A stretch of DNA of 64,000 bases from Pelagibacterium nitratireducens (GTDB taxonomy: Bacteria > Pseudomonadota > Alphaproteobacteria > Rhizobiales > Devosiaceae). Numbering within the stretch: the stretch's first letter is position 1; every line of letters starts with the position of its first letter. Made by a program: the position numbers and the translations under genes. This document shows, piece after piece, positions 10,515 through 30,810 of the stretch. The notes beneath the pieces were generated by a model. It was not told the origin of the DNA. It did no database searches and saw only the letters and a program-made list of their open reading frames with translations. The DNA is taken from NCBI RefSeq assembly GCF_037044555.1, contig NZ_CP146275.1, positions 3,142,501 to 3,206,500 of the forward strand. The letters are read 5' to 3'.

Positions 10515-10577
10515 TGCCTTGCCCTTGTGTTTTTTGACCGTCTCGACCTAAATGCAGGCGCGACAGTAGGTGAATGA

Positions 10578-10599: not shown

Positions 10600-10608
10600 C
10601 AATCCACG

Positions 10609-11295: not shown

Positions 11296-11372
11296 GTATC
11301 GATCGGGCGGGAGCCCTCGGAACTCAGGCTCGCGCGCACCACATTGACCGGCAGGGCAAGCGGCCTGTAGAA

Positions 11373-11394
11373 TGTACGAAACAGTTCGTATGTT
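11373..11394. promoter_or_regulatory. Quinate-module operator, copy 3 (quiC promoter)
   Basis: TGTACGAAACAGTTCGTA matches copies 1 and 2 except for the two central bases and retains the symmetric TACGAA-N4-TTCGTA arms. It ends 12-16 bases before the quiC start codon, so a bound repressor would block initiation or early elongation. Confidence 0.78.
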
Positions 11395-11405
11395 GTGGAG
11401 CCATC

Positions 11406-13400: not shown

Positions 13401-13430
13401 CGTCAATAAGGTAACTCACTTGTGTTATTG
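13401..13430. promoter_or_regulatory. ROK-module operator, copy 1 (exported PIG-L promoter)
   Basis: Read on the minus strand this stretch begins CAATAACACAAGTGAGTTAC and ends CTTATTGACG. It matches at most positions the elements at 20692-20721 and 20829-20858, which flank the ROK repressor and ABC-importer promoters. The common pattern is AATAAC, two bases, AAGT, then TTA, then TTATTGAC. It lies 104 bases upstream of the PIG-L start. Confidence 0.75.
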
Positions 13431-13533
13431 TTTTTCACGGCGCATACTCGTGGTCGAATTGGACGGAAAGATCCGATGCCAGGCGCCGCTGAACGGGCCA
13501 TAGGAGTGTAATTTCAAAGGTAGGACAAACCCG

Positions 13534-16026
13534 ATGACCAAGATCACACGACGCATGTTCATGGCGTCCTTGCCGGTGATGTATGCAGCCTCGCACATCC
13601 CCGCCTGGGCGGCTCCGCTCAGCGATCTCGACCTGATCGCCCAGCAAAAACTCGAGCCGGCCATCGTTACTCTCTATCGCCGTCTCGAGCGCCTGACTTC
13701 CACCGCCACAATCATGACCACAGGGGCGCACCCCGATGACGAACCGTCGGCGATGCTGGCGGCGTTGCGCCATGTCTATGGCATCCATCCGGTAGTCTAT
13801 GCCATCACGCGCGGCGAAGGCGGTCAGAACTCGATCGGGCCGGAACTGGGCTCGGTGCTGGGCGTGCTGCGCACCCGCGAAATGGAAGAAGCCTCGCGCT
13901 CGCTCGATGCCTCGCTGGCATTCGGCAGTTTCGGGCACACCGATTCCGTTCACGATTTCGGCTTTTCCAAAGACCCCAACGAGACCATCGACCAGTGGGG
14001 CCGCGACAAGATCGTCGAGCGCATGACGGCGGCGTTCCGCAAGTACAAGCCCGACATCATCATGAACTGCTTCCTCGATGTCCCTGGCCAGCATGGCCAC
14101 CACAGGGCGGCCAACGTCGCGACATTCATTGCCGCCGAGCTGTCGGGCAACCCGCAGGAATTCCCCGACCAGATCGCCGGCGGCCTCGACACCTGGGAGG
14201 TGCCGAAAATCTATCAGCCAGCCTATGGCGGCGGCGGCGGGGTCTATGACGACGAGGTGCCGCCTCCCCCCGTGACGCTGGTGGTGACTGCACCCGAACG
14301 CGACAAGATTTCCGGTGCGACTTTCCCCCAGATGGGCGAATGGTCCCGCTCCTGCCACCGCACACAGGGCATGGGCCGCTGGCGGCCCGAGCCGACGACC
14401 GAATGGGAGCTCAATCTCTCCCGCATTACCGGTGGTGGCGAAGGCGCCCAGGAAAGCGATATTCGCGAAGGGCTCATCGCCACAGTCGGGGACATCGCCG
14501 AACTCGACGGCATGCCGTCCGACACCGCAGATGCACTGCGTGAGGCCCAGGGGCTGATCGAGGAAGCCATTGCCGATTATGGCGACCCGGTCGTCGTTCT
14601 GGCGAAAGTGGGACGGGTTGGTGAAATCATCGACATGGCCCGCGAGAGCCTGCCCGAAGCGCTGCATGCCAATGTCGCACACCGGCTGGATCGCAAGGTC
14701 AAGGAGATCGACCTCGCCCTTGCCGCCGCGGCCGGTGTTCAGATCCGGTCCTATACCGAGGGCGGCGATGTGACGCCGGGCGACGAAGTGGTCATCAAGA
14801 CCATCGTCGATGGTCCCGAGGACGTAACAATCGAGGGTGTCGAGATCGTCGCGCGCGAGGGTCTCACGGCTTCGGGTGAAACGGTTTCTGTTGCCGAAGA
14901 CGCCAGCTACACCAACCCGCTCAGCGAAGAGTTCGATCCGCTGGGTGGCAATGGCGATGCTTATACAAAGGTGTCGCTCAATATCGGCGGACGCACGGTT
15001 GTGCTCGACGTCGATCTGGAAGACCAGCTGCGCGTCATTCCCACGGCTTCGATGACAATCGAACCGAGCGCAATCGTCTTCAATACCACCGCCGAGCTGG
15101 GTCCGGTGCCGCTGACGGCGACACTGACCAACGCGACGCTGGGTGACCTCTCGATGCCGGTTCCCCAGGGTTGGGCGCTCGATGAAACCGAGCGCGCCTC
15201 GGACATGAGCGGCACGTTCGCGCTGGTGCCACCTGACGGGCTCGAGCAGTTGCGCTTCGATATCGAACCCGAACTTCTCGGTGAGCAGGCCTATCAGATC
15301 GACACCTTCACCTACCCCCATATCGGCCGGTCGGTGGTTCCCACCACGGTATCGGTTCCCGTGCAGGCAGTCGGCGCCGAGCTGCCATCGGTCAAGCGCA
15401 TCGGGTACGTATCGGGCGGCAACGACAATGTCGGGCTGTGGATGGAACGGCTCGGGCTCGAGGTCGTGGAATTGTCTCCCGAGGACATTTCGAGCGGTAC
15501 CTATGGCGATCTCGGCACGATCGTTGTCGGTATTTTCGCGTTCGGGCGGCGCCCCGATCTGGCAGAGAACATTGATGGCATCCACGAATGGGTGCGCAAT
15601 GGCGGGCATCTGGTGACCCTTTATCACCGCCCGTCCGACGGCTGGGATCCCGAGACCATTCCGGTCGCCTATCTCAAGATCGGCTCACCCTCGATCCGTT
15701 TCCGCGTGACCGACCCCAATGCGGAAGTCGATGTTCTCGAGCCTGACCATCCGCTGCTCAACTACCCCAACACCATCGGAGCGGACGACTGGGCGAACTG
15801 GGACAAGGAACGCGGGCTGTATTTCGCCGAGGAGTGGGACGAGGTCTACAAGCCGCTTCTGGCCATGCACGATAGCGGGGAAGATCCGCTGGCAGGCTCG
15901 CTGCTTTCGGCCCAGATCGGGGCCGGACGGCATACGCACACCAGTCTGATCCTGCACCACCAGCTCGACAATCTGGTGCCCGGCGCTTTCCGGCTGCTCG
16001 CCAACCTCGTCCAGCCGGCTGAATAG
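13534..16026 (+). CDS. Exported PIG-L (LmbE) family deacetylase with large C-terminal region
   Basis: An 830-residue protein. The N-terminus has a twin-arginine-like leader (TRRMFMASLP, then a hydrophobic stretch ending PAWAAP near residue 28). The PIG-L zinc hydrolase domain follows, with AHPDDE at residues 65-70 (His66, Asp68/69) and the partner histidines in GQHGHH at 186-190. The middle third is beta-rich and resembles NEW3/NPCBM-type sugar-binding modules. The last 200 residues (GYVSGGNDNVGLWMERLGLE, VVGIFAFGRRPDLAE, GGHLVTLYHRPSDGW) form a class I amidotransferase/ThuA-like fold. Known PIG-L enzymes remove acetyl from N-acetyl-amino-sugars. Export suggests action on an extracellular glycan or conjugate. 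It has a dedicated promoter with the ROK-module operator and ends at a strong terminator. A shorter cytosolic paralogue lies at 17030-19381. Confidence 0.88.
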   Translation: MTKITRRMFMASLPVMYAASHIPAWAAPLSDLDLIAQQKLEPAIVTLYRRLERLTSTATIMTTGAHPDDEPSAMLAALRHVYGIHPVVYAITRGEGGQNSIGPELGSVLGVLRTREMEEASRSLDASLAFGSFGHTDSVHDFGFSKDPNETIDQWGRDKIVERMTAAFRKYKPDIIMNCFLDVPGQHGHHRAANVATFIAAELSGNPQEFPDQIAGGLDTWEVPKIYQPAYGGGGGVYDDEVPPPPVTLVVTAPERDKISGATFPQMGEWSRSCHRTQGMGRWRPEPTTEWELNLSRITGGGEGAQESDIREGLIATVGDIAELDGMPSDTADALREAQGLIEEAIADYGDPVVVLAKVGRVGEIIDMARESLPEALHANVAHRLDRKVKEIDLALAAAAGVQIRSYTEGGDVTPGDEVVIKTIVDGPEDVTIEGVEIVAREGLTASGETVSVAEDASYTNPLSEEFDPLGGNGDAYTKVSLNIGGRTVVLDVDLEDQLRVIPTASMTIEPSAIVFNTTAELGPVPLTATLTNATLGDLSMPVPQGWALDETERASDMSGTFALVPPDGLEQLRFDIEPELLGEQAYQIDTFTYPHIGRSVVPTTVSVPVQAVGAELPSVKRIGYVSGGNDNVGLWMERLGLEVVELSPEDISSGTYGDLGTIVVGIFAFGRRPDLAENIDGIHEWVRNGGHLVTLYHRPSDGWDPETIPVAYLKIGSPSIRFRVTDPNAEVDVLEPDHPLLNYPNTIGADDWANWDKERGLYFAEEWDEVYKPLLAMHDSGEDPLAGSLLSAQIGAGRHTHTSLILHHQLDNLVPGAFRLLANLVQPAE

Positions 16027-16053
16027 TTGCCCAAGGCATGGTTGTGACGATGA

Positions 16054-16082
16054 GCGCCCCGGTTTGCCGGGGCGCTTTTTTT
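16054..16082 (+). terminator. Rho-independent terminator after the exported PIG-L gene
   Basis: GCGCCCCGG-TTTG-CCGGGGCGC forms a perfect nine-pair stem followed by seven T residues, 28 bases after the stop codon. On the other strand it has no T tract until further away, so it serves mainly the plus-strand gene. Confidence 0.92.
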
Positions 16083-16138
16083 GTCGTATCGCGCGGTCGA
16101 ACCGAAAAAGTCGGCACCTTTTTCAGACAGCACCCCGG

Positions 16139-17029
16139 CTATCGCTCTGTCTCGGAATTGGCCTTGCGCCGGATGGCGGCGGCTTCGAGCATGTTGGTCG
16201 ATTGCAGCGCGATAAGGATGATCGCCACGCCGATGACCGTCGCCCAGGATGGGACTTCGTTGAAAAAGACAAACCCGGCAAGCGCGGCAAAGCCGATGGA
16301 AAGATATCCCAGAGGCGCCAGTATGCGGGCCGGGGTCGTCTGGTAGGCGCGCAGGAAGCAGTACTGTCCGATCTGGGCCAGGATGCCGATGGCAAGGAGC
16401 GTCGGCCAATCGGCCGATGCCACGGGCTGCCAGACAACCATCGCGGGAATGGCGGTCAGCACGGAGAGCCCGACGGTATAAAAGACCATGAGGACGGCGG
16501 TATCCTCGTTTTCCATGGCGCGGATCTGGATGACGGCAAGCGAGCCAAACAGCACCGAGCCGAACGCCGCGGCAAGGCCCCATGAGAACGTCACTTCGCC
16601 CGGCGCGAGGATGACAAGAATGCCGACAAAGCCGATGGCGGTGCCGATCCAGCGCACGGGGGCGATTCTTTCGGCCAGCAGCCACGCAGCAAAAACCATG
16701 ACGACCAGCGGCCGCATGAAGCCAATCGCATTGACCAGCGCAAGTGGCAGAGCCGCAAGCGCTGTGAAATTGCAGGTCAGGGCCAGCGTGTTGCATCCCA
16801 CCCGCACCAGATGCCGCAGGGGCTGTTTGGTACCGATGACCGCATGGCGCTTGCGCCAAGCCAGCGGCAGGATGGAGACCAACCCGATCAGCGAGCGGAT
16901 GAACACCAGCTGGATCGCCGGATAGGTGGCGCCCTCGAACTTGACGAGAACGGTCATGACCGTAATCAACGTCATGTCGGCCAAAAGCCAGGCGATGCCG
17001 CTGCGATAGGAAGGCGCCGGGTCGGCCAT
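16139..17029 (-). CDS. EamA/DMT-family membrane permease
   Basis: A 296-residue inner-membrane protein with ten hydrophobic spans arranged as two EamA repeats. Landmarks are VFIRSLIGLVSILPLAW and ALVNAIGFMRPLVVMVFAAWLLAERI in the first half and FLRAYQTTPARILAPLGYLSIGFAALAGFVFFNEVPSW in the second, the latter a clear EamA motif. Members export or exchange small metabolites such as amino acids, nucleosides or sugars. Its ATG is directly adjacent to the TAG stop of the cytosolic PIG-L gene, so it is third in the operon ROK-PIG-L-EamA. An exporter in a catabolic operon might relieve accumulation of a toxic intermediate; the cargo is unknown. Confidence 0.88.
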   Translation of the reverse strand: MADPAPSYRSGIAWLLADMTLITVMTVLVKFEGATYPAIQLVFIRSLIGLVSILPLAWRKRHAVIGTKQPLRHLVRVGCNTLALTCNFTALAALPLALVNAIGFMRPLVVMVFAAWLLAERIAPVRWIGTAIGFVGILVILAPGEVTFSWGLAAAFGSVLFGSLAVIQIRAMENEDTAVLMVFYTVGLSVLTAIPAMVVWQPVASADWPTLLAIGILAQIGQYCFLRAYQTTPARILAPLGYLSIGFAALAGFVFFNEVPSWATVIGVAIILIALQSTNMLEAAAIRRKANSETER

Positions 17030-19381
17030 CTACATGCGGCCGCCCGCCACGAGGTTTGCCAGGATGCGGAAGGCGCCGGGCACGAGATGATCGAGCTGGT
17101 GGTGGAGGACGAGGCTGGTGTGGGTGTGACGGCCCTTGCCGATTTCGGCCGTCAGGAGCGAGCCTTTCAGCGGGCTTTCGCCCTTGTCGCTCATGGCAAG
17201 GAGCGGGGTATAGGCATCGTCCCATTCTGATGCAAAATAGAGGCCCCGCTCCTTGTTCCAACCCTGGAAGTCGCCCACCGAGATCGGGTTGGGGCCGGCA
17301 AAAATCGGATTGTCCGCCGCCAGTATCTCCACCGGCGCATCGGGATTGGTCACCCGCCAGCGCAGTGACGGCTGGCCAATCTTGAGAAAGCGCGGCGGAA
17401 CGGCGTCCGGCGTCCAGCCATCCCAGGGGCGATGGTAGAGGGTGACAAGATTGCCGCCTGCCTCGACATAAGCGCGGAGCGCTTGAGTGCTGGCAGCCAG
17501 ATCGGGGCGCAGCCCGAAGGCGAAGATGCCAACGACAATGGCGGGAAATCCCGAAAGATCTTCGGAAAGCGCCCGCGCGTCGAGTTCGGTCACCTTGAAC
17601 CCCATGCGCGCCAGCCAGAGGCCGACATTGTCGGCACCGCCCCCGATATAGGCAACGCGGCGGTCCTCGGGGAGAGCGAGGGTGAGCGCAAGAATATCGA
17701 GACGCGCGGGGGTCAGGTAAAGGCTTTTACCGATATGGGCGTAGTCAATGGGCTGGACGGTGAAGGCCGGCGCATCGTCGAGAAGCGCGTCGAGGGTATA
17801 GCGGCCCTCGACCAGCCCGCTTCCCGAGAGCGTAACGCCGTCCCTGCCTGGCACGATTTCGATGCCTTGAGCGCTGGAAAGACTTAGATTGCCGGTATCG
17901 CCTTCGATCCTGGCTTCCACCGACAGACCTGAAAATTCGGCATCTGCCGCCACCAGCAGGGCGCTGGGCGTCAGGCTGACCGAGGCTGCCGGGACGATGG
18001 TGAGTGGGCGTTCCAGACCGAAGGCGCGCGCTATGGTGCGTCCGGAAACGGTCAGAGTCAGGACGATGCACGCATCGCCATTGGCACCCGAGGCCGTGAA
18101 CGACTGGGTAAATGGCCCGGTGACGGGGGCGTCGGGCGCCACCTCCAGTGTATATCTGCCCGGCGGCTGCGCAATGATCGAGACACCGTCGGGCAGGATC
18201 AGATCGATCGAAACGTCTTGGGGTACACCACGAAGCGTAAGGCTGAGATCGACCGTCTGGCCCTGCGCCACCACCGGCCGGTCGAGCGCGGCGACACAAT
18301 CGATGCCGGCTGCGACGAGCATTGCAGATTCGAGATCGGCAATCATGGTTTCGATGCGATGGACGTGTTCGGCCGGGACCGTTTCGGCATGAGCCTCGAT
18401 GATCTCAAGGGCCACCGCCAAGGGGGCAATGATCTCATCGGCCTTGGGGAAGGCCGCGATGGCTGTGGCAATGGCCGAATCGGCAGAGGCGAGCCCGGGA
18501 ACAATGTCGGCGAGGCGGCCGGGAAGATTGTCGGTGATCTCGCCGATATCATCTGGCCCGACCCGGAGATGGAGCGGCCATTCGGTCCTGGGATTTTCCG
18601 GCCAGCGCCCCATGCCCTGGCTGGCATGATAGAGCCGGGACCACTCCCCGATCTCATCAAACGGCACGCCGGTTGCAAAATCGGGGTTGGTCGCAACCAA
18701 CTTTACCGTTTGGGGCGGCGGTGGCACCTCGTCATCATAAGTCGATCCCCCGCCAGACCAGGCGGGCAGATAATATTTGGTGACCTGCCAGGGCGCCAGG
18801 CCCTGAGCGAAATGCTCGGGATAGGCGTTGGGGTCTGCAGCCAGCGCAATCGCCTCCTCGGCGGCCATGGTCATGGCGCGATGATGACCGTGCTGGCCGG
18901 GCACATCGAGAAATGTGGGGATGACGATATCGGGCTTTTCACTGCGATAGGCGCGAACCATACGCTCAACGATCAGGTCGTGCTGCCAGCGTTCGAGGGT
19001 GTCGTGACCGTTTTTCGAGAACCCGAAATCGTGGACGGGATCGCTCGGGCCGAACCCGAACCATACGATATCGGCATCGATAACCTTTGCCGATTCTTCA
19101 AGCTCGCGGGTGCGAACCACTCCAAGCGCGCCGCCGCGCTCGGGACCGAGCGTATTCTGGCCGCCCTCCCCGCGCGTCGAACAGCCGATGATGGTACGCA
19201 TGCCGAGCCCGAAGCGCATGAAGGCAAGCATGGCGTTCTGCTCGTCGTCAGGATGGGCGCCGGTGTGAAGCACCGTGACGCACGATTTCAACCGAGCCAG
19301 GGCCCGGTGGAGTGCAACCAGTCGTGAATTGGCGCGACGCTGGGTGAAGCGATGGGAAAGCTCAAGGCGCGATAGGGGCAT
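17030..19381 (-). CDS. Cytosolic PIG-L (LmbE) family deacetylase, paralogue of the exported one
   Basis: The 783-residue product starts MPLSRLELSHRF with no signal peptide. The PIG-L domain carries AHPDDE at residues 42-47, CSTRGEGGQNTLGPERGG, FGFGPSDPVHDFGFSKNG and DVPGQHGHHRAM. A beta-rich middle and a C-terminal ThuA-like region (VAYIGGGADNVGLWLARMG, VVGIFAFGLRPDLA, GRHTHTSLVLHHQLDHLVPGAFRILAN) align along the full length with the exported PIG-L protein. The start at 19381 has AGGA nine bases upstream and leaves an 8-base gap to the ROK gene; a longer open frame runs backwards through the ROK gene and is spurious. Two copies that differ by export signal suggest sequential or compartment-specific deacetylation of the same substrate class. 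Confidence 0.87.
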   Translation of the reverse strand: MPLSRLELSHRFTQRRANSRLVALHRALARLKSCVTVLHTGAHPDDEQNAMLAFMRFGLGMRTIIGCSTRGEGGQNTLGPERGGALGVVRTRELEESAKVIDADIVWFGFGPSDPVHDFGFSKNGHDTLERWQHDLIVERMVRAYRSEKPDIVIPTFLDVPGQHGHHRAMTMAAEEAIALAADPNAYPEHFAQGLAPWQVTKYYLPAWSGGGSTYDDEVPPPPQTVKLVATNPDFATGVPFDEIGEWSRLYHASQGMGRWPENPRTEWPLHLRVGPDDIGEITDNLPGRLADIVPGLASADSAIATAIAAFPKADEIIAPLAVALEIIEAHAETVPAEHVHRIETMIADLESAMLVAAGIDCVAALDRPVVAQGQTVDLSLTLRGVPQDVSIDLILPDGVSIIAQPPGRYTLEVAPDAPVTGPFTQSFTASGANGDACIVLTLTVSGRTIARAFGLERPLTIVPAASVSLTPSALLVAADAEFSGLSVEARIEGDTGNLSLSSAQGIEIVPGRDGVTLSGSGLVEGRYTLDALLDDAPAFTVQPIDYAHIGKSLYLTPARLDILALTLALPEDRRVAYIGGGADNVGLWLARMGFKVTELDARALSEDLSGFPAIVVGIFAFGLRPDLAASTQALRAYVEAGGNLVTLYHRPWDGWTPDAVPPRFLKIGQPSLRWRVTNPDAPVEILAADNPIFAGPNPISVGDFQGWNKERGLYFASEWDDAYTPLLAMSDKGESPLKGSLLTAEIGKGRHTHTSLVLHHQLDHLVPGAFRILANLVAGGRM

Positions 19382-19389
19382 GGACAGTC

Positions 19390-20631
19390 CTATGGCCGGG
19401 CAGCTGCGACCGCCGGCGAATATTCGAGTGAGAGTTGAGGCGACAAGATATCGTGCAGGGCGAGAGCAGCCGCACCCAGTGCCGCGGTAAAGCGCCCCGT
19501 TTGCCCGCGAACGACTCGCGGCTGGGCACGTCCGGTACGGGTGGAGACAGAAACCGGCAGCGGTTCGAGCGCCGCGATCAGCGCATCGAGGATAACATCG
19601 GGAAGATTGCCGCCGAACACCACGGTTTCGGGATCGAAGATGTTTTCGATCATGGCAACTGTGGGCGCCAGATAGTCGGCCGCTTGCTTGATCCAATCGG
19701 CAAGGACCGGATCGTTCTGGGTGAAAAGCGGTTCGAGAGCGCCGCTGTCGATGTTGGGACGGCCACTGGCCGCCAGTTTTTCGCGCAAGGCATACAACGA
19801 AGCAAAGCGCTCCAGCGCACCGTCGGGACCGTAACTTGGTAAGCCATGGCGCGGCACCAGCGCCACATGGCCGATTTCGCCAGCATTGCCGAAGGCACCG
19901 CGCAGTGGAACGCCGTCCTTGAGAACGCCAAGACCCAGGCCGACGCCGAAATAGAGAAAGCAGAAATTGGAAATCTGGCGCCCGGCCCCGTAGAGCCGTT
20001 CGCCAACGGCGGCGGCGGTGGCGTCATTTTCGATCGACACGGGCTGGCCAATGGCCCGGGAGAGTGTCGCCTTGGCGTCGATGCCCTTCCAGCCGGGCAG
20101 CGTCGCGGGTCCGACCGAACTCATCCCTTCGACCTCGAACGGCCCCGGCATCACGGCGCCAAACCCGATCAGCCGGTCTCGCGAAGCGCCGATCTGGGCG
20201 CAGAGCTTGTCGATTTCCTCCGATACCCTGCCGGGCACCTGATCGGGCGTTGCCGATTGAAGGGGAGCGATCGCCTGAGCGCGGACGGCACCAGAGAGAT
20301 CGAGCAGGGTGGTCGCTATATGATCGGCGGCGATTTCCACGCCCCCGGTCAAGGGGCCGTCGGGATTGATGGCAAACTGGATCGGCGGCTGGCCGCGGCC
20401 CGAACGCAGCCGGCCCAGTTGCACCAGCATGCCCTCGCTCAAAAGGTCATCGACGATATTGGCGACGGCCTGAGGCGTAATGCGGGCGCGGCGGGCAATT
20501 TCGGTGCGTCCCATATGACCATGGGTGCGAATGACTTCGAGCACCACGCGCCTGTTATGGGCCCGGTTGCGCTCTGGATTGGAACCGATGACGAGGCGTG
20601 GGCCACGACCGTGCTTTTCCGAACTGGTCAA
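19390..20631 (-). CDS. ROK-family transcriptional repressor
   Basis: A 413-residue protein with an N-terminal winged helix (RRVVLEVIRTHGHMGRTEIARRARITPQAVANIVDDLLSEGML, about residues 27-70) and a ROK sugar-kinase-like domain (GGVEIAADHIATTLLDLSG, then GFGAVMPGPFEVEG, ENDATAAAVGERLYG and FGVGLGLGVLKDG). The zinc-binding cysteine cluster of NagC/Mlc-type proteins (CxCGxxGC) is absent; the corresponding place reads GLPSYGPDGALERFAS. ROK repressors sense sugars or amino-sugars, often as phosphates. It heads the operon with PIG-L and EamA and is divergent from the ABC importer operon. Matching operators lie in front of itself, the importer and the exported PIG-L gene, so it likely represses all three and responds to a PfkB-phosphorylated or free sugar. 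Confidence 0.9.
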   Translation of the reverse strand: MTSSEKHGRGPRLVIGSNPERNRAHNRRVVLEVIRTHGHMGRTEIARRARITPQAVANIVDDLLSEGMLVQLGRLRSGRGQPPIQFAINPDGPLTGGVEIAADHIATTLLDLSGAVRAQAIAPLQSATPDQVPGRVSEEIDKLCAQIGASRDRLIGFGAVMPGPFEVEGMSSVGPATLPGWKGIDAKATLSRAIGQPVSIENDATAAAVGERLYGAGRQISNFCFLYFGVGLGLGVLKDGVPLRGAFGNAGEIGHVALVPRHGLPSYGPDGALERFASLYALREKLAASGRPNIDSGALEPLFTQNDPVLADWIKQAADYLAPTVAMIENIFDPETVVFGGNLPDVILDALIAALEPLPVSVSTRTGRAQPRVVRGQTGRFTAALGAAALALHDILSPQLSLEYSPAVAAARP

Positions 20632-20691
20632 GGTTTCCCCTCTTGCCGATTGGGCGCGCGCTATCGGACCAGCAGATTATGCACGCCATCC

Positions 20692-20721
20692 GAATAACAC
20701 AAGTAGATTAATTTAATCGCG
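20692..20721. promoter_or_regulatory. ROK-module operator, copy 2 (rok promoter)
   Basis: GAATAACACAAGTAGATTAA followed by TTTAATCGCG, 61 bases upstream of the ROK start. It shares AATAACACAAGT exactly with copy 1 and the AATAAC, AAGT and ATTA blocks with copy 3. The 334-base divergent region 20632-20965 holds this copy, copy 3 and no gene. Confidence 0.75.
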
Positions 20722-20828
20722 CGTAATCCGCGGCCGCAGCGGCACCGGACGCGGAGTGGATTGGTCATTGTTTCGATTTTTCGCGGCTGCGCCAAGCGTT
20801 AATCTCGATCCGGCGTGACTCGTCGCTC

Positions 20829-20858
20829 CAATAACGAAAGTAAATTATTTTATTGACA
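20829..20858. promoter_or_regulatory. ROK-module operator, copy 3, overlapping a -35-like box of the importer promoter
   Basis: CAATAACGAAAGTAAATTAT followed by TTTATTGACA. The final TTGACA (20853-20858) looks like a sigma-70 -35 element for the ABC importer operon that starts at 20966, so operator occupancy would block RNA polymerase. The -10 box is not distinct. The match to copy 1 covers both ends of the element. Confidence 0.75.
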
Positions 20859-20965
20859 AGGCATCGCACATCATTTGACGATGACCGGATGGTGGACGGA
20901 GGGGTCCGAGCCGCCAAGCAATCACGCAGGGAAGATGTTTCCCTGCTCCCAAAGGAGGGATTAGC

Positions 20966-22228
20966 ATGCGTAGAGCACTTGCATTGACCGCACTTTCAGC
21001 CGGCGTCAGCCTGGCTGCCCTGGGTTCGGCCCAGGCGGTGGAAATCGAATACTGGCAGTATGTATTTGACACCCGCGTCCAGGCAATGGACCAGTTGATC
21101 GCCAATTTCGAGGAAGCCAATCCCGATATCACGGTCAATCACCAGACATTCCCCTATGCCGATTACCAGACCCGCGTCGTGGCCGCCAATGTTGCCGGTC
21201 AGGGTCCGGATGTAGCCCAGCTGTTTTATGGCTGGCTCGACAATTTCATCGCTGGCGGATTGATCCAGCCGCTCGATCCCGAGGTTTTCCCGACCGAGGA
21301 AATCGAAGCCGATTTCTTCCCCATCGTTTCCGCCATGGAGCGTGACGGACAGTATTGGGGACTGCCCACCGCCGTGCGTTCGCTGGCCCTGTTCTACAAC
21401 AAGGACATTCTCGAAGCTGCCGGGCTCGATCCGGAAAGCCCTCCGCAGACGCTCGACGAGCTCGTCGAAGCTGCGGAAGCGACAGTTGAGCGTGACGGCG
21501 GCGGCAACATCACGACGGTCGGCATTGCGATGGGCATGGCCGGTCAGGACCACCAGTGGTGGCGCGAGGGCCTCGTCCGCCAGTTCGGCGGCCAGCCTTA
21601 TTCCGACGATGGTCGCACCGTGACCTACAATGACGAGGCGGGCCTTGCCGCAACAACATGGCAGGCCGACCTCTATCTGGGCGATGATGCCGTGACCCAG
21701 GTCGGGTTCATGGATGAGCCGCAGGCCGCCTTCCGCGCCGGCCGCGCCGCAATGACCATCGATGGCACTTTCCGTCTTGGTGCGTTCGGCTCCATCGAGG
21801 AATTCGAGTGGGGTGTGACCGAGTTGCCTGCCAATGAAGACGGCATGCGTTCGAACTATGCGAGCTATTTTGCCAATGCGATCGGCGCGCGCGCCGAAGG
21901 CGAAGAGCTCGAAGCGGCCCAGAAGTTCCTCGCCTATATCAGCTCGCCCGAAGCCATGGAAATCTGGCTCGACGTGGTGGGCGAACTTCCCGCGCGCAAG
22001 GATGTTGCGCTGACCGAGGAAAATCTTTCAGACCCCATCTATGGTCCGTTCCTTGCAGGACTTGAATACGCCCACACCACGATCTTTGTGGACGAGGCCG
22101 CCCAGCGGCAGGTGGCGATCGACATGGAAAGCCGTATGTCGCTGCAGGGTCAGTCGCCCGCAGACTCGCTGGCTGCGGCCGCCGAGGAAGAACAGGCCAT
22201 CCTCGACGACTTCTACGCCGACCAGTAA
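20966..22228 (+). CDS. ABC importer periplasmic sugar-binding protein (family 1)
   Basis: A 420-residue extracellular solute-binding protein of the family 1/MalE-like class. It has a signal peptide ending in GSAQAVE near residue 25, the N-terminal strand VEIEYWQYVFDTR, then NHQTFPYADYQTRVVAANVAGQGPDVAQLFYGWLDNF, GQYWGLPTAVRSLALFYNKDIL and AAMTIDGTFRLGAF in the hinge region. It captures a carbohydrate or glycoside for the two permeases that follow. An aggAGGGATTAGC site precedes the ATG. It is the first gene of the operon repressed at the ROK operator. A strong hairpin after the gene should make its mRNA more abundant than that of the permeases. The ligand is unknown; amino-sugar conjugates are suggested by the deacetylases in the regulon. 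Confidence 0.92.
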   Translation: MRRALALTALSAGVSLAALGSAQAVEIEYWQYVFDTRVQAMDQLIANFEEANPDITVNHQTFPYADYQTRVVAANVAGQGPDVAQLFYGWLDNFIAGGLIQPLDPEVFPTEEIEADFFPIVSAMERDGQYWGLPTAVRSLALFYNKDILEAAGLDPESPPQTLDELVEAAEATVERDGGGNITTVGIAMGMAGQDHQWWREGLVRQFGGQPYSDDGRTVTYNDEAGLAATTWQADLYLGDDAVTQVGFMDEPQAAFRAGRAAMTIDGTFRLGAFGSIEEFEWGVTELPANEDGMRSNYASYFANAIGARAEGEELEAAQKFLAYISSPEAMEIWLDVVGELPARKDVALTEENLSDPIYGPFLAGLEYAHTTIFVDEAAQRQVAIDMESRMSLQGQSPADSLAAAAEEEQAILDDFYADQ

Positions 22229-22235
22229 CAATGGG

Positions 22236-22269
22236 AGCGGACCGGTTGACTGACCGGTCCGCTCTTTTG
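22236..22269 (+). terminator. Intercistronic hairpin after the binding-protein gene
   Basis: GAGCGGACCGGT pairs perfectly with ACCGGTCCGCTC across a six-base loop, followed by four T residues. It lies 8 bases after the stop of the binding-protein gene and 72 bases before the first permease. A partial terminator that sets a high binding-protein to permease ratio is the usual role. Confidence 0.82.
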
Positions 22270-22340
22270 GCATTCGATCCAATCGGGCCGGACAACAGCC
22301 CGGCCGTACCGGTTATGCAAATCAGCAGGAGTGGCAGGCG

Positions 22341-23273
22341 ATGACTGCGGCAGCATCGGCAAGTGGCACCGTGGAGCGACCCGGAGCCTGGAATCGTCTC
22401 AGCATTGGACAGAAGCGCCTGGTCTGGGTGTGGACGTTTTTGGCCCTGCCCGTGGTCTTTTACGTGGTGATCCGTTTCTATCCCACTGTGCAGGCGTTCT
22501 GGCTGTCGTTCACCGATTGGGATCTTCTGCGACCGGCCGAGTTCATCGGGGCCGAAAATTATATCGAGCTCTACAACGATCCGCTGTTCTGGCAGGTGTT
22601 CCGCAATACGTTCGCGTATCTGATTGTCGGCACGCCGATCAGCCTCGTCATCTCGTTCGCCGTGGCCTATTATCTCGACCGCGTGCGGTTCATGCACAGT
22701 TTCATACGTGCCCTTTATTTCCTGCCGTTCCTGACGACGGCCGCCGCCATGGCGTGGGTTTGGCGCTGGTTCTATCAGCCGCCACCGATCGGCATCATCA
22801 ACGGCTTTCTGGGCACTGTGGGCCTTCCGGCCCAGCCCTTCCTGCGCTCGACAGAGCAAGCTCTGCCCGCCATCATGGTGACGGCGATCTGGGCGGGGCT
22901 GGGGTTCCAGATCATCATTTTCATGGCCGGACTGCGGGCCATTCCCCAGACCTATTATGAAGCGGCGCGCATTGACGGGCTTGGCGAGTGGGCCATCCTG
23001 CGCAAGATCACCCTGCCGCTTCTCAAGCCCACGACCGTATTCCTCGTCGTCTTTTCCTCGATCGGATTCCTGCGGATTTTCGATCAGGTCTACAACATGA
23101 CCAGCAACGATCCGGGCGGGCCGCTCAACACGACAAAGCCGCTGGTGCTGATGATTTACCAGACGGCCTTTTCTTCCTTCAACATGGGCTATGCGGCAGC
23201 GCAGACGGTGGTGCTCTTTACCATCCTTCTGATCGTTTCGCTGCTGCAACTCTGGGTTCTGAGGACACGCTGA
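22341..23273 (+). CDS. ABC importer permease, MalF/LacF type
   Basis: A 310-residue inner-membrane protein with six main spans and a cytoplasmic N-terminus. The binding-protein-dependent transport signature with the EAA loop reads YYEAARIDGLGEWAILRKITLPLLKPT. Upstream landmarks are FWLSFTDWDLLRPAEFIGAENYIELYNDPLFWQVFRNTFAYL and AWVWRWFYQPPPIGIINGFLG. It pairs with the next permease to form the channel for a sugar-type substrate. The start ATG overlaps no other gene and is preceded by CAGGAG. The end overlaps the next gene by one base (TGATG), implying translational coupling. Confidence 0.93.
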   Translation: MTAAASASGTVERPGAWNRLSIGQKRLVWVWTFLALPVVFYVVIRFYPTVQAFWLSFTDWDLLRPAEFIGAENYIELYNDPLFWQVFRNTFAYLIVGTPISLVISFAVAYYLDRVRFMHSFIRALYFLPFLTTAAAMAWVWRWFYQPPPIGIINGFLGTVGLPAQPFLRSTEQALPAIMVTAIWAGLGFQIIIFMAGLRAIPQTYYEAARIDGLGEWAILRKITLPLLKPTTVFLVVFSSIGFLRIFDQVYNMTSNDPGGPLNTTKPLVLMIYQTAFSSFNMGYAAAQTVVLFTILLIVSLLQLWVLRTR

Positions 23274-24133
23274 TGACCGCCACAGCTGCCACGAGCTCCG
23301 AGCTCAAACACAACGCCGCCTCCATCCGCCCGGACCGTATCCTGATCTGGACACTGTTGCTCATTGGCGGAGTGCTGATGATCACACCACTGCTGTTCAT
23401 GTTTTCGACCTCGCTGAAAACGGCGAGCCAGGTTTATGATTTGCGGCTCATCCCAGCGGCGCCCACCTTCGACAATTATATCAAGGTGCTATCGGACGGG
23501 CGTTTCGTGCGGTGGTTCTTCAATTCGACGCTGGTCGCGGTAAGCGTGACGCTTTCGAACGTCTTTTTCGACTCCCTGGTTGGTTACACGCTGGCGAAAT
23601 TCCAGTTTCGTGGCCGGTACCTGATTTTCATTGCCATTCTGTCGACCCTGATGATCCCCACCGAAATGCTGGTGATCCCGTGGTATCTGATGAGCGCGCA
23701 ACTGGGCTGGATCGACAGCTATTGGGGCATCATGTTCCCGGGCATGATGACGGCGTTCGGTACGTTCCTGATGAAGCAGTTCTTTGAAACCGTGCCCGAC
23801 GATTTCCTCGAAGCGGCGCGCGTGGATGGGCTGAACGAATTCACGATCTGGTGGAAAATTGCCATGCCCATGGTGGCCCCGGCCATCTCGGCTCTGGCGA
23901 TCTTTACCTTCCTGGGCAACTGGACGGCGTTTTTCTGGCCGCTCATCGTCACCAACAGCCGCGAGCTTTATACGCTGCCGGTGGGGCTTTCGAGCTTTGC
24001 GGTCGAGCAATCGATCCAGTGGGAAATGATCATGACCGGCGCAGCGCTTGCGACCATCCCCACCCTGCTCGTTTTCCTCGTCCTCCAGCGCTACATCGTA
24101 CGCGGTGTGATGCTGGCCGGCTTGAAGGGCTGA
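23273..24133 (+). CDS. ABC importer permease, MalG/LacG type
   Basis: The 286-residue product has six membrane spans. Its signature segments are TSLKTASQVYDLRLIPAAPTFDNYIKVL, VGYTLAKFQFRGRYLIFIAILSTLMIPTEMLVIPWYLM and the EAA loop FLEAARVDGLNEFTIWWKIAMPMVAPA. The start is fixed by the TGATG overlap with the preceding permease; a much longer open frame running back into that gene is a shadow. It completes the translocation pore with the MalF-type subunit. Three bases separate its stop from the lyase gene, so the five downstream genes are one transcript. Confidence 0.93.
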   Translation: MTATAATSSELKHNAASIRPDRILIWTLLLIGGVLMITPLLFMFSTSLKTASQVYDLRLIPAAPTFDNYIKVLSDGRFVRWFFNSTLVAVSVTLSNVFFDSLVGYTLAKFQFRGRYLIFIAILSTLMIPTEMLVIPWYLMSAQLGWIDSYWGIMFPGMMTAFGTFLMKQFFETVPDDFLEAARVDGLNEFTIWWKIAMPMVAPAISALAIFTFLGNWTAFFWPLIVTNSRELYTLPVGLSSFAVEQSIQWEMIMTGAALATIPTLLVFLVLQRYIVRGVMLAGLKG

Positions 24134-24136
24134 TCG

Positions 24137-25639
24137 ATGACCGCGATGAAAGATACGAGCGTTTTTCCCGATCCTGTCTACAAGGAGGCCGTGCTTCGCC
24201 CGCTTTTCGACGGCGCCAAGGATCATCATGCCGACGGGTTCAGGGCCATCGATCGGGCGCATCTGGTCATGCTGGCCGAAACCGGTATCCTCAAACGCGA
24301 GCAGGCCGCGTCCATTGCCAGGGCTCTTGTCGCCATCGATGCCGAAATCGATCTCGACAGCCTGGTTTATACCGGCGAGGTCGAGGATTTCTTCTTCCTG
24401 ATCGAAAAGCACCTCAAGGGCCGGCTCGGACCCGACCTGGCGGGGCGGCTTCATACCTCGCGGTCGCGCAATGATATCGATCACACCTTGTTCAAGCTCG
24501 GGCTCAAGCCGCGCACCGAAATCCTGCTCGAAAAGATGCGGGCGCTGCTCGACGCGGTGCTGACAACAGCCGAGCGGGAAGCGGAAACGCTGATCGTTGC
24601 CTATACGCATGGGCAGCCGGCGCAGCCGACGACCTTCGGGCACTATCTTGGCGCCATGGCCGAGGTGCTGATCCGCGACATCGAGAAAGTGGAAGCGGCC
24701 CTCGAGGTGATCGATCTCTCGCCCATGGGCGCCGCGGCGATCACCACATCGGGTTTCCCAATCGAGCGGGAGCGGGTGGCCGAGTTGCTCGGGTTTTCCC
24801 GTCCGCTGGAAAATTCCTATGGCTGCATTGCGTCGGTCGATTACATCACCGGCATTTATGGCGCGATGGCGCTGAGCTTTCTCCATCTCGGCCGGCCCAT
24901 CCAGGACTTTCAGGTCTGGTCGAGCTTCGAGGTGGCGCAGCTCTACGTGCCCAACTCGCTGGTTCAGATTTCATCGATCATGCCGCAAAAGCGCAATCCG
25001 GTGCCCATAGAGCACCTTCGCCATCTGGCGAGCCAAACCTATGGCCGGGCCAAGGCGATGCTCGACATCATGCACAACACGCCCTTCACCGACATGAACG
25101 ATAGCGAGGGTGAAAGCCAGGCCATGGGCTATCAGGCGTTCGATGCCGCCTATCGCGTGCTCGACCTTTTCACCGCACTGACCGCGCAGGTGTCGATCAA
25201 CGCCGAACGGGTTGAGATCAACACCAAGCGCTCATGCATCACCATTACCGAATTGGCCGACAGTCTCGTCCGGCTCGAGGATCTCTCGTTCCGGCAGGCG
25301 CACGAGGTTTCGGCGGCGGTTGCACGAGCCGTGGTTGCGGCCGAGGGCTCGCTGGCCGAGGACGGATACGGGCCCTTTACATCGGCATTCGAAGACGCAA
25401 CGGGGCGGGCTTCAAACCTTTCGCCCGAGCGATTTGCCGAACTGGTTTCGGCAAGGCATTTCGTTTCGGTTCGCGACCGGCTCGGGGGTCCTGCACCTGC
25501 AGCACTTCGAGCCTCGCTCGGACGCTATCGCGAAAAGCTCGCGACATTTTCCGCCGGCGCGGCCCGACGCGCGGAACGGCAAAAAAACGCACACAGCGAA
25601 CTCAATGACAAATTCAATGCACTTTTAGGAGCGGCGTGA
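24137..25639 (+). CDS. Argininosuccinate-lyase-like enzyme of the fumarase/aspartase superfamily
   Basis: A 500-residue protein covering the ArgH fold: HTSRSRNDIDHT near residues 111-122, THGQPAQPTTFGHYL, SPMGAAAITTSGFPIERERVAELLGF, and the flexible catalytic loop ISSIMPQKRNPVPIEH (about 278-293). Superfamily members cleave a C-N or C-O bond next to a carboxylate, usually releasing fumarate. Deviations from true ArgH are visible: the loop begins Ile-Ser-Ser where ArgH has Gly-Ser-Ser, and the HTGRSRNDQ motif reads HTSRSRNDI. Its place between sugar permeases and their ATPase, in the ROK regulon, argues against arginine synthesis. An N-(sugar or amine)-substituted aspartate or O-linked malate is a more likely substrate; that is inference. 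Confidence 0.82.
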   Translation: MTAMKDTSVFPDPVYKEAVLRPLFDGAKDHHADGFRAIDRAHLVMLAETGILKREQAASIARALVAIDAEIDLDSLVYTGEVEDFFFLIEKHLKGRLGPDLAGRLHTSRSRNDIDHTLFKLGLKPRTEILLEKMRALLDAVLTTAEREAETLIVAYTHGQPAQPTTFGHYLGAMAEVLIRDIEKVEAALEVIDLSPMGAAAITTSGFPIERERVAELLGFSRPLENSYGCIASVDYITGIYGAMALSFLHLGRPIQDFQVWSSFEVAQLYVPNSLVQISSIMPQKRNPVPIEHLRHLASQTYGRAKAMLDIMHNTPFTDMNDSEGESQAMGYQAFDAAYRVLDLFTALTAQVSINAERVEINTKRSCITITELADSLVRLEDLSFRQAHEVSAAVARAVVAAEGSLAEDGYGPFTSAFEDATGRASNLSPERFAELVSARHFVSVRDRLGGPAPAALRASLGRYREKLATFSAGAARRAERQKNAHSELNDKFNALLGAA

Positions 25640-26709
25640 TGGCAGAAATCCAGTTGGAAGGCCTCGTTAAGCGCTATGGCAAGGTGACCGCCGTTCACGG
25701 CATCGACCTCGAAATTGCCGATGGCGAGTTCGTGGTTTTCGTCGGGCCATCGGGCTGTGGAAAATCGACAACCCTGCGTATGATCGCCGGGCTCGAGGAA
25801 ATTTCGGGCGGCGTGCTCAAGATCGGCGATACAATCGTCAATCAGTACGAACCCAAGCAGCGCAACATCGCCATGGTGTTCCAGAACTACGCCATTTATC
25901 CCCACATGACGGTGGGGCAGAATATCGGGTTCGGGCTTTACACCTCCAAACTTTCCAAGTCCGAAAAGCAGCGGCGCATTGCCGAGGCCGGCAAGATTCT
26001 GGGCCTTGAAGATCTGCTCGAGCGCCGTCCGGCTGCACTTTCGGGCGGCCAGCGCCAGCGTGTCGCCATCGGGCGCGCCATGGTGCGCGATCCGGCAGCG
26101 TTCCTGTTCGATGAACCGCTCTCCAACCTCGACGCACAATTGCGCTCGCAGATGCGCATCGAAATCAAGCGCCTGCATCAGCGCCTTGGAACCACCATCG
26201 TCTATGTCACCCACGACCAGATCGAGGCGATGACCATGGCCGACCGTATCGTTGTGATGCGCGACGGGCTCATCTTGCAGGTGGGCACGCCGACCGAGCT
26301 CTACGACAGCCCCGTCGATGTTTTTACCGCACGGTTTATCGGCAGCCCGTCCATGAACCTGATCGATGGCAGCGCGGCAGACGGCGCGCTGACAGCTGGA
26401 GGCGTCAAGGTCAAGGGCACCCTGCCCCAGGCCCGATCGGGCAAAATCCTTGTCGGAGTCCGACCGCATGACCTCCTCGTGGGCGAAGCCCCGGCCGATG
26501 CCGCGCTGGCCTTTGACGGCAAGGTCACCGCGGTCGAGCCGCTCGGTTCGGAAACTCTGGTGCATCTCGATATCGCCGGATCATCGGCCATTGCCACGGC
26601 ACCGGGCAAGCTTTTGCCCGCAGTCGACAGTATCGTTACAGCCTGGGCGGCTCCGGGGAATCTCTATCTCTTCGACGCGCAGAGCGAAAAAGCCTTGGGG
26701 CGTCTATGA
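25639..26709 (+). CDS. ABC importer ATPase, MsmK/UgpC type
   Basis: A 356-residue ATPase with Walker A GPSGCGKST, Q-loop MVFQNYAIYPHMTVGQN, ABC signature LSGGQRQRVAIGRAMV, Walker B FLFDEPLSNLDAQLRSQ and the switch His in VTHDQIEAMTMADR. A C-terminal OB-like regulatory domain follows, with VGVRPHDLLVG. This is the class that energises family 1 sugar importers. The ATG at 25639 overlaps the TGA of the lyase gene by one base; a GTG directly before it is less likely. It serves the permeases at 22341-24133. Its end overlaps the kinase start by four bases. Confidence 0.94.
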   Translation: MAEIQLEGLVKRYGKVTAVHGIDLEIADGEFVVFVGPSGCGKSTTLRMIAGLEEISGGVLKIGDTIVNQYEPKQRNIAMVFQNYAIYPHMTVGQNIGFGLYTSKLSKSEKQRRIAEAGKILGLEDLLERRPAALSGGQRQRVAIGRAMVRDPAAFLFDEPLSNLDAQLRSQMRIEIKRLHQRLGTTIVYVTHDQIEAMTMADRIVVMRDGLILQVGTPTELYDSPVDVFTARFIGSPSMNLIDGSAADGALTAGGVKVKGTLPQARSGKILVGVRPHDLLVGEAPADAALAFDGKVTAVEPLGSETLVHLDIAGSSAIATAPGKLLPAVDSIVTAWAAPGNLYLFDAQSEKALGRL

Positions 26710-27608
26710 ATCTGAAATCGCCGCGCGACGCTGTGATCAGCGTCGGCCGCATCTATTGCGACCTTGTTTTCTCCGGACTCTCGGGCATGCCGCAAATGGG
26801 CCATGAGGTTTTTGCGCGTTCCATGCAGCCTGTGCTTGGCGGCGGGGCGTTCATCGCCGCGGCCCATCTGTCCCATCTTGACCGCCCGGCTGCCCTGCTG
26901 GCCGCTTATGGCACCGACCCGCTGTCGCAAACGCTGGCGCCCCAACTTGAAGAGAGTGGCATCGATCTGCGTTTTCTCGAGCGTCGGGCCGATGCGGGGC
27001 CGCAGGTCACCGTCGTGATGACCAATGCGGAGGACAGGGCCTTTCTTTCATGTCGAGCCGGACGCGCCGTACCGACTCGCTTTGCGAACGCGCTGGCCTG
27101 GGAGCGGGCAGCTCTCTTACACATCGCCGAATATGCAACGCTCGATGAACAGCCAGATCTTGTTTCGCGTGCCAAGGCGGCCGGGCTGGTCGTCGCGCTC
27201 GATCCAAGCTGGGATGAAACACTCATCGGCCAACCGGGGCTGCTCAAGGCCTGCGCGGGTGTGGACATCTTTCTTCCCAATGCCGAGGAAGCGGCCGCCA
27301 TCACCGGCAAGTCCGATCTCGCACAGGCGCTCGATGTGCTGGCCGATCATTTTCCCATCGTCGCGATCAAATGCGGCGGCCGGGGCGGATTGCTCGGCGC
27401 AGGCAAGACGCGGCTCTCGACTACGGCGCCCAAGGTTCATGTCGTCGATACGACGGGAGCGGGCGATGCCTTCAACGCGGGCCTGATCGATGCGTATCTT
27501 TCCGGGCGCGCTCTGGGCGAGTGCCTCGATGCGGGCGTTACGGCCGGATCTTTGTCGGTGCAGTCGATCGGCGGCGCGCCACGCCCCGCTACGTCGGTCG
27601 CCGTGTGA
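26706..27608 (+). CDS. PfkB-family carbohydrate kinase
   Basis: A 300-residue kinase of the ribokinase/PfkB family. The N-terminal glycine motif is in VLGGGAFIAAAHLSHL and the C-terminal anion-hole and catalytic Asp motif is DTTGAGDAFNAGLIDAYLSG near residues 248-267. An additional helper motif is VDIFLPNAEEAAAITG. It phosphorylates a sugar or similar alcohol with ATP in the cytosol. As last gene of the importer operon (ATGA overlap with the ATPase), it probably acts on the imported compound or on the sugar released by the deacetylase or lyase. PfkB kinases of this size also act on fructosamines in Amadori-product pathways, which gives one testable alternative. The gene ends 29 bases from the convergent M20 gene. 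Confidence 0.88.
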   Translation: MNLKSPRDAVISVGRIYCDLVFSGLSGMPQMGHEVFARSMQPVLGGGAFIAAAHLSHLDRPAALLAAYGTDPLSQTLAPQLEESGIDLRFLERRADAGPQVTVVMTNAEDRAFLSCRAGRAVPTRFANALAWERAALLHIAEYATLDEQPDLVSRAKAAGLVVALDPSWDETLIGQPGLLKACAGVDIFLPNAEEAAAITGKSDLAQALDVLADHFPIVAIKCGGRGGLLGAGKTRLSTTAPKVHVVDTTGAGDAFNAGLIDAYLSGRALGECLDAGVTAGSLSVQSIGGAPRPATSVAV

Positions 27609-28806: not shown

Positions 28807-28815
28807 GGTGGACCT

Positions 28816-29796
28816 TCAGAGAATGTCGTCGCGGATGCAGGCCTTGAGGTGGCCGGGCGCGACCTCACGCAATTCCGGGCGAATTTGGGCGCATTCGGGA
28901 AGCGCGTAGCGGCACCGCGTTCTCAACACGCACCCCGACGGCGGATCGATGGGGCTTGGGATATCCCCCTCGAGAACGATACGGTGGCCTTGTCTGTCGG
29001 GGTCGGGAGCAGGCGCGGCCGACAGCAGCGCTTCGGTATAGGGATGCTTGGGAGATGCGTAGAGCCGGTCGCGAGGGGCGATCTCCATGATGCGACCCAG
29101 ATACATAACGATCACCCGATCGCAAAAATGTTCAACCACGGCAAGATCGTGGGCGATGAACAAGATCGTGAGTCCAAGCTGATCCTTAAGGTCCTGCAAG
29201 AGGTTGAGAACCTGGGCCTGAACGGACACGTCGAGCGCGGAAACCGGCTCGTCGGCGACGATAAAGCCCGGGGAAACCGCGAGTGCGCGTGCAATGCCAA
29301 TGCGCTGGCGCTGGCCGCCGGAAAATTCATGCGGAAACCGTTGGGCGGCATCAGCGGGTAGCCCGACAAGCTCGAGCAGTCGCGCCACTTCGGCCTCACG
29401 CTCCTTGCGCGTGCCAATGCCATGGATTTCCATGCCTTCGGCGATCAGTTCGCCCACCTTCCTGCGCGGATTGAGGCTCGCAAAAGGGTCCTGAAACACC
29501 ATCTGAATCTTGCGCCGGAAGGCCATCATTTCGCGTTCAGGCAAGCTGGCGATGTCAGTGCCTTCATAGACGATTTCGCCTTCGGTCGGGTCGGTCAGCC
29601 GCATTATGGTGCGCCCGATCGTGGTCTTGCCCGACCCCGATTCCCCAACGAGCCCGACGACCTCGCCGCGGGCGATCTCAAAACTCACATCGTCGACCGC
29701 GTGCACCTGGCGCTTTTCGCGCGAAAAGGGCTGGCCCTTGACCGGAAAGCGCTTGGACAGATTATTGACGGACAAAAGAGCTTTTGAAGCACTCAT
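28816..29796 (-). CDS. dppF: Dipeptide-type ABC transporter ATPase, DppF-like
   Basis: A 326-residue ATPase with Walker [16 protein letters not shown]-loop [16 protein letters not shown], signature [15 protein letters not shown] and Walker [19 protein letters not shown]-terminal oligopeptide-transporter extension follows, with the cysteine pair in [25 protein letters not shown] (a pattern linked to an iron-sulphur site in some members). It works with the DppD-like ATPase whose end overlaps its start by four bases (ATGA). Confidence 0.93.
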
Positions 29797-30806: not shown

Positions 30807-30810
30807 AGCC

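Follow-up and report, generated by a model that had tools for sequence, protein, structure and literature searches.

A conserved alphaproteobacterial gene cluster with an ArgH-like lyase and large PIG-L proteins, a candidate regulon for glucosamine conjugate catabolism

We analyzed a 64,000-nucleotide stretch of the 3.85 Mb Pelagibacterium nitratireducens genome (NZ_CP146275.1, positions 3142501-3206500; hereafter the window) and within it a ten-gene cluster at 13401..27608 that joins an ATP-binding cassette (ABC) importer to an argininosuccinate lyase (ArgH)-like protein, two large PIG-L family proteins, a PfkB-family kinase, an EamA permease and a ROK-family regulator (Table 1). Using gene neighborhoods, conserved residues and shared operator sites as evidence, we propose with moderate confidence that the cluster is a regulon dedicated to catabolism of a glucosamine conjugate, which would be imported, deacylated, cleaved by the lyase and phosphorylated. 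All of the parts belong to known families; the pathway is apparently undescribed and has a predicted new enzyme activity. We found no description of this gene combination in the open-licence full-text literature. A first-pass annotation had listed the same ten genes, and each is present as an open reading frame with the domain and at the place it had given.

Conservation of the gene neighborhood

We compared 161 distinct loci that encode the lyase. These derive from 165 loci, comprising 20 of the 25 orthologues from a sample of relatives, the best 80 of 518 stretches from a one-genome-per-species scan, all 15 genomes from class and phylum samples, 40 of 41 new genomes of family f64 (G1117 is not included) and 10 plasmid records chosen by eye, minus four with identical lyase DNA. 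Loci with other ArgH paralogues or unannotated ones (L156, L158, L164 and L235-L238) were excluded. Counting as a match a tblastn hit at E 1e-8 that covers at least 30% of the query anywhere in the locus, we find importer genes in 158 loci, PIG-L in 149, the ROK regulator in 141, PfkB in 122 and EamA in 84, in a set that was chosen for presence of the lyase, retains near-identical genomes and contains many loci ended by contig ends. By comparison, no match to NagB, PIG-L, PfkB, the solute-binding protein (SBP) or a permease is found in 20 neighborhoods of genuine argH genes (8 kb per side; 19 from genomes of the window's family, its own included, and one from its order), while generic ABC-ATPase matches, present at all 20, are uninformative. 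Given these counts for the 161 loci and the 20 controls, we rejected a chance neighborhood. Clustering of the unmatched neighbors revealed no widely shared extra gene, the biggest cluster being present in 10 of 161 loci.

The cluster has a wide distribution. In the sample of relatives, 25 of 100 other genomes have a lyase orthologue, 54-92% identical where unbroken (that of G046 is split over two contig pieces), as against about 34% for genuine ArgHs; at the 20 fetched loci the SBP and both permeases always accompany the lyase and PIG-L B is matched in 18. The best 80 of the 518 stretches extend to Rhizobiales and Skermanella, and all 80 have the ROK regulator, SBP, both permeases, lyase and ATPase; 77 have PIG-L B, 74 PfkB and 51 EamA. 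The lyase is also encoded in 44 of 295 genomes of family f64, which judging from its kin is probably Rhodobacteraceae, and in 12 of 385 class-sample and 6 of 398 phylum-sample genomes (own genome counted in each); the class and phylum searches, at a threshold of E 1e-80, are blind to lyases of the Deinococcus type, which are about 32% identical. The PIG-L and lyase genes are divergent and adjoining, with no UgpB-type importer nearby, in three loci of family f98 (L141-L143); PIG-L and lyase are thus a possible core pair.

A rearranged version is present in Deinococcus. On plasmid pDFI1 of Deinococcus ficus the order is ROK-lyase-large PIG-L-SBP-permease-permease-small PIG-L-PfkB, and a plasmid of D. 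wulumuqiensis has the same order. D. deserti has this set without the large PIG-L, and Deinococcus sp. KNUC1210 has only the lyase, SBP and permeases. The D. ficus lyase is about one third identical to that of the window, and its large PIG-L carries NEW3 and CBM9-like domains. It is possible that the two versions share descent through transfer and later rearrangement. The first-pass annotation had proposed conservation of the neighborhood as a test of its reading, and the gene set does recur across Alphaproteobacteria and, in another order, in Deinococcus, which supports the view that these genes form a single system.

The lyase differs from ArgH

The lyase resembles ArgH in fold and catalytic motifs, and it just passes the argH model TIGR00838 (285.5 bits, cut-off 279.5); PRK06705 gives a higher score (320 bits) that is short of its own cut-off of 883. 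Based on these scores and on the argH annotation of its relatives, the cluster could be read as an argininosuccinate or arginine-related system that lies by chance beside a sugar importer, a reading to which we give almost no credence. The genome encodes a separate ArgH that is 34% identical to the lyase, the neighborhood is fixed and differs from that of ArgH, and a tree places 27 cluster lyases in one clade (100/99) and 20 genuine ArgHs in another (100/100); this split is the only firm part of the tree, in which long branches lead to the ethylenediaminedisuccinate (EDDS) lyase, most other ArgH paralogues and the Deinococcus group, and L235, one of those paralogues, also lies on the cluster side. 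The pocket has also changed. All 27 cluster lyases and all 4 Deinococcus lyases compared have V289, H293, H313, N314, D319 and N321, while the corresponding residues are D, L, K, G, Y and K in 20 of 20 ArgHs. We therefore rejected an ArgH function: because it has its own clade and a different pocket, this enzyme is probably not an ArgH, despite the annotation of its relatives. It does not group with true ArgH; such grouping, together with a neighborhood that is not conserved, had been named in the first-pass annotation as a refutation of its reading. The closest named relative among the best 80 stretches, at 99% identity, is in a Pelagibacterium metagenome-assembled genome.

The superfamily chemistry appears to be retained. 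The motifs SRND and SSIMPQKRN (pattern SSxMPxKxN) are present in all 27 cluster lyases, and S110, R111, N112, S280, K285 and N287 are kept across all cluster, Deinococcus and ArgH rows of the alignment. In our structural model of the lyase, the catalytic loop 285-288 has a predicted confidence (pLDDT) below 50. A second relative is the EDDS lyase of Chelativorans sp. BNC1 (PDB 6g3d-6g3i; about 28% identity), whose residues Q159, D290 and Y320 lie near the substrate, according to a report on it (PMC12363623); these residues are replaced by H158, V289 and D319, so the lyase lacks this EDDS lyase residue set. The window lyase is surrounded by an importer, PIG-L and a kinase.

Replacement of D290 and Y320 would also fit elimination of a different acid, for instance a sulfonated or phosphonated one rather than malate or aspartate, from an amino-sugar conjugate. 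XcbC, which eliminates an acid in coenzyme M synthesis, is among the models matched by the lyase (177 bits, cut-off 575). Yet the six residues S110, R111, N112, S280, K285 and N287 are common to the fumarate-forming ArgH and the EDDS lyase and are all kept, and we regard another acid as quite unlikely.

Linked deaminases point to glucosamine-6-phosphate

The strongest argument for the identity of the sugar comes from genes that have joined the operon elsewhere. A glucosamine-6-phosphate deaminase match, of either of two unrelated types (NagB-I or NagB-II), is found in 25 of the 161 loci, of which 153 extend for more than 3 kb past the lyase. In 21 of the 25 it shares the strand of the lyase and lies 2.4-4.2 kb downstream of where that gene starts. 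Nine of the 25 matched proteins were scanned for identity. Two of four NagB-I proteins pass TIGR00502 (257.6 and 242.1 bits, cut-off 236.9), one is slightly under and one is ambiguous; for all five NagB-II proteins NF046059 is the best model, and none reaches its strict cut-off. In Roseomonas haemaphysalidis (L155), for instance, the ATPase is followed by two genes, for a compact ROK kinase and for a SIS protein; in Paroceanicella profunda a ROK protein is encoded at this place together with nagB. Because two unrelated deaminase types have joined the same operon position, we propose that the product of the kinase is glucosamine-6-phosphate, which narrows the substrate to glucosamine conjugates and to a short list of candidate compounds. 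The first-pass annotation had ended its scheme with phosphorylation of a sugar, and the linked deaminases support a phosphorylated amino sugar as this end point. The window's cluster itself has no NagB; one NagB-type gene (PF01182) lies elsewhere in its genome.

In some loci a ROK protein may stand in for PfkB. Some kinase or kinase-like ROK protein is present in 134 of the 161 loci. Compact ROK kinases are found in L155 and L148. A further ROK protein, matched in 10 loci, carries about 100 additional N-terminal residues in L165; it is counted as kinase-like and may be a kinase or a regulator.

The deaminases also bear on Amadori-type sugar-amino acids, which had been put forward earlier as one substrate class. 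If the substrate were fructosyl-aspartate, the lyase would yield fumarate and 1-amino-1-deoxyfructose, and PfkB would act in the manner of FrlD. PfkB does match fructoselysine 6-kinase weakly (48.5 bits, cut-off 247), but ribokinase and other models score higher. The scanned SIS proteins are of the NagB-II/GlmS type and the type I deaminases are NagB-like: the L155 protein scores 313 bits against the NagB-II model (cut-off 430) and 27 bits against the fructoselysine-6-phosphate deglycase FrlB, and FrlB is not among the matches at E 1e-15 for four further SIS proteins scanned. In addition, a flavin adenine dinucleotide (FAD)-dependent oxidase belonging to the sarcosine-oxidase family is encoded in seven loci, immediately past PIG-L B or EamA and on the same strand as PIG-L (L119:1026-2195, L027, L035, L047, where it aligns in two pieces, L055, L084 and L085). 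For the L119 protein, monomeric sarcosine oxidase is the best match of known structure (250 bits), as against 37 bits for a fructosyl-amine oxidase. Amadori sugars are weakened by both the deaminase type and the oxidase type, and would leave PIG-L without a role; we consider them very unlikely.

PIG-L proteins and the nature of the conjugate

Both large PIG-L proteins belong to the N-deacylase family (PF02585; 48.8 and 52.1 bits for A and B, cut-off 28.2) and carry the AHPDDE motif. They are paralogues (43% identity over 814 aligned positions) and the only PF02585 matches in the genome. By eye, PIG-L A begins with a leader resembling those of the twin-arginine translocation pathway (TRRMFMAS...AWA) and none is seen in PIG-L B. 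The first-pass annotation described an exported PIG-L paired with a cytosolic one, a combination present in some genomes only: of 13 loci (L023-L035) that include about 14 kb of sequence before the lyase, 6 have a PIG-L A match. The count of 7 among the best 80 loci is an undercount, since their 10 kb flank excludes the gene, and in one of the seven (L092) the match occupies the place of PIG-L B. None of the NCBI equivalog models for BshB, MshB or Mca, a library that to our knowledge has none specific to Bca, is passed; only Mca gives matches (E 0.001; 23.7 and 24.5 bits, cut-off 277). One locus without PIG-L (L145) has, by eye, a Gfo/Idh/MocA oxidoreductase-like frame behind the ATPase.

We propose the following route. 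The ABC importer, whose genes are observed, would take up the conjugate. PIG-L B in the cytosol, joined in some species by exported PIG-L A, would remove an N-acyl group from glucosamine, as expected of their family. Judging from its catalytic residues and superfamily chemistry, the lyase would then beta-eliminate the carrier acid to give glucosamine and fumarate. PfkB, or a ROK protein in its place, would form glucosamine-6-phosphate, as the deaminase genes that follow the kinase elsewhere suggest, and NagB would convert this to fructose-6-phosphate. The ROK regulator would repress three transcription units until substrate or product is present.

Because elimination should yield a stable unsaturated acid, fumarate by family chemistry, the acid part would be malate (O-linked) or aspartate (N-linked). 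Given that PIG-L is present in 149 of 161 loci, we favor an N-acyl glucosamine with an O-linked acid. Known compounds of this kind are N-acetylglucosamine (GlcNAc)-malate and bacillithiol, and our leading guess, unproven, is that the substrate is such a glucosamine-malate derivative from other bacteria. In bacillithiol metabolism BshB deacetylates GlcNAc-malate and Bca cleaves bacillithiol conjugates, as described in PMC4101496. No BshC was detected in 61 genomes (own included), with a control query that was positive in 3 of 14 known genomes. These bacteria would thus be scavengers, the absence of BshC excluding a biosynthetic role only. We tentatively raise a more specific possibility, which we think less likely than not: that Alphaproteobacteria of soil and sea, and Deinococcus with its own gene arrangement, take up bacillithiol or its GlcNAc-malate core made by other bacteria, that PIG-L acts as amidase or deacetylase, that the lyase splits the sugar-O-malate bond and that EamA exports the cysteine set free. 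No paper on bacillithiol degradation or uptake or on a glucosamine malate lyase was found in the open-licence literature, which misses most subscription journals.

Several observations weigh against GlcNAc-malate or bacillithiol as the substrate. By eye, the substrate-contacting arginine of BshB is not kept in PIG-L. Five of six tested genomes have the lyase without a large PIG-L, and four of these five are 99-100% complete. Lastly, linked cysteine genes are lacking; a cysteine dioxygenase adjoining the cluster occurs in Roseinatronobacter alone, in one of 165 loci. This gene (L162:300-953) adjoins EamA and PIG-L, and we did not count it as a sign of bacillithiol.

The main rival is an N-linked conjugate, in which the lyase would cut the C-N bond of an N-succinyl glucosamine to give glucosamine and fumarate, and PIG-L would act on another acyl group or on a precursor. 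The substrate could then be a Heyns-type product formed from fructose and aspartate, or another N-substituted aspartate of this sort. This would require no new bond type, since both of the closest relatives, ArgH and EDDS lyase, cleave C-N bonds (PMC12363623), and it would account for genomes such as G821 (L149) that have the lyase, a kinase and a NagB-II match and no large PIG-L. The secondary-amine oxidase linked in seven loci, mostly from Devosia kin, fits as well. The nitrogen of an N-succinylated glucosamine, however, offers no acyl group, which leaves PIG-L unexplained despite its linkage in 149 of 161 loci, and we judge the N-linked variant unlikely.

Gene layout and a shared operator

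Table 1. Genes and putative operator copies of the cluster (window coordinates)
Feature	Position	Strand	Evidence and remarks
Operator copy before PIG-L A	13412-13429	-	exact match to AATAACRMAAGTRRRTTA
PIG-L A, 830 aa	13534-16026	+	PF02585, 48.8 bits; AHPDDE and GQHGHH motifs; probably an exported N-deacylase (putative)
EamA/DMT permease, 296 aa	16139-17029	-	PF00892, 92.7 bits
PIG-L B, 783 aa	17030-19381	-	LmbE domain ~33-289, beta domains, GATase1/ThuA-like C-terminal domain ~572-783
ROK-family repressor with helix-turn-helix (HTH)	19390-20631	-	PF00480, 138.8 bits; MarR HTH match under cut-off
Operator copy nearest ROK start (ROK/PIG-L B/EamA unit)	20693-20710	+	exact AATAACRMAAGTRRRTTA; footprint in ROK-SBP intergenic regions
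Operator copy before SBP...PfkB unit	20830-20847	+	exact AATAACRMAAGTRRRTTA; footprint in ROK-SBP intergenic regions
Family 1 solute-binding protein (SBP)	20966-22228	+	PF01547, 139.4 bits
ABC permease A (UgpA-like)	22341-23273	+	PF00528
ABC permease B (UgpE-like)	23270-24133	+	PF00528, scanned from upstream start
ArgH-like lyase, 500 aa	24137-25639	+	predicted to free glucosamine from conjugate
UgpC/MalK-type ABC ATPase	25636-26709	+	NF008653, 464 bits (cut-off 432)
PfkB sugar kinase	26706-27608	+	PF00294, 129.7 bits; predicted glucosamine kinase

Domain scans identify a UgpBAEC-type carbohydrate importer, with SBP_bac_1, two BPD permeases and a UgpC/MalK ATPase, and the best solved relatives of the SBP carry the names of sugar-binding proteins. 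The start of permease B was picked from its overlap with the permease A stop. Given the near-touching gene ends in ROK-PIG-L B-EamA and in permeases-lyase-ATPase-PfkB, the simple reading is two operons plus PIG-L A.

A shared operator had been predicted earlier, and one copy does lie before each of the three presumed transcription units, with no further exact copy in the genome. When we searched the window for the 18-base AATAACRMAAGTRRRTTA with up to 3 mismatches, we found 3 matches, all exact, where 0.12 are expected. With the looser AATAACNNAAGTNRRTTA and up to 2 mismatches, the whole genome has 3 exact matches, all at the cluster, and one two-mismatch match elsewhere; the reversed control of this pattern has 3 genome matches within 2 mismatches. 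Across related loci, the ROK-SBP intergenic region has an operator match at 15 or more of 18 positions in 92 of 140 cases, as against 1% of same-length random segments, which were drawn from the same loci and can include a true site. The remaining 48 loci, a large share of them from family f64, include many with shorter or differing palindromes (by eye). These data support a dedicated ROK regulon with putative operator sites.

Comparison with known systems

The cluster shares features with several described systems. Like BshB, Bca, MshB and Mca, the large PIG-L proteins belong to the LmbE/PIG-L superfamily, but they are about 790 residues long with beta domains and a GATase1-like tail, and have HGHH where those enzymes have HPDH; BshC, as noted, was not found. 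The Nag regulon comprises operons for catabolism of GlcNAc and glucosamine with a ROK regulator, a kinase and a glucosamine-6-phosphate deaminase. Our cluster likewise has a ROK regulator, a kinase and, in some loci, the deaminase, to which it adds the ArgH-like lyase and large PIG-L. The fra and frl pathways act on sugar-amino acid conjugates (fructose-asparagine and fructoselysine) and use a PfkB-type kinase. The idea of such a conjugate and the kinase type are common to both, whereas the cluster has a lyase and its scanned SIS proteins are NagB-II-like.

Neighboring genes and other ArgH paralogues

Upstream of the cluster, window positions 8876-13295 encode a GntR/FCD regulator, a shikimate dehydrogenase-like protein and a xylose-isomerase-like barrel fused to a glyoxalase domain resembling 4-hydroxyphenylpyruvate dioxygenase, which we take, from fusions of that type, to resemble a shikimate/quinate catabolic set. 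Downstream, on the minus strand at 27637-32731, an M20 peptidase and an Opp/Dpp-type ABC importer adjoin the cluster; the peptidase is matched in 2 of 165 related loci, and this set is probably unrelated to the cluster.

Other ArgH paralogues occur in quite different surroundings: beside an importer and mandelate-racemase-type enzymes (L158), beside an Opp-type importer and coenzyme A (CoA) transferases (L164), beside an amidase and a branched-chain-type importer (L235), and, in Sinorhizobium fredii, behind a cysteine-synthase-like gene (L238). These neighborhoods suggest that there are more lyases with other substrates.

Implications

In the public records that we examined, the lyase gene of the relatives is labelled argH, and pathway tools may therefore assign arginine synthesis to it and mask a catabolic route. 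If the malate guess is right, this would be a route for bacillithiol catabolism. And if the bacillithiol reading is true, the argH-labelled lyase would be the first enzyme known to beta-eliminate a sugar-O-malate bond, giving glucosamine and fumarate.

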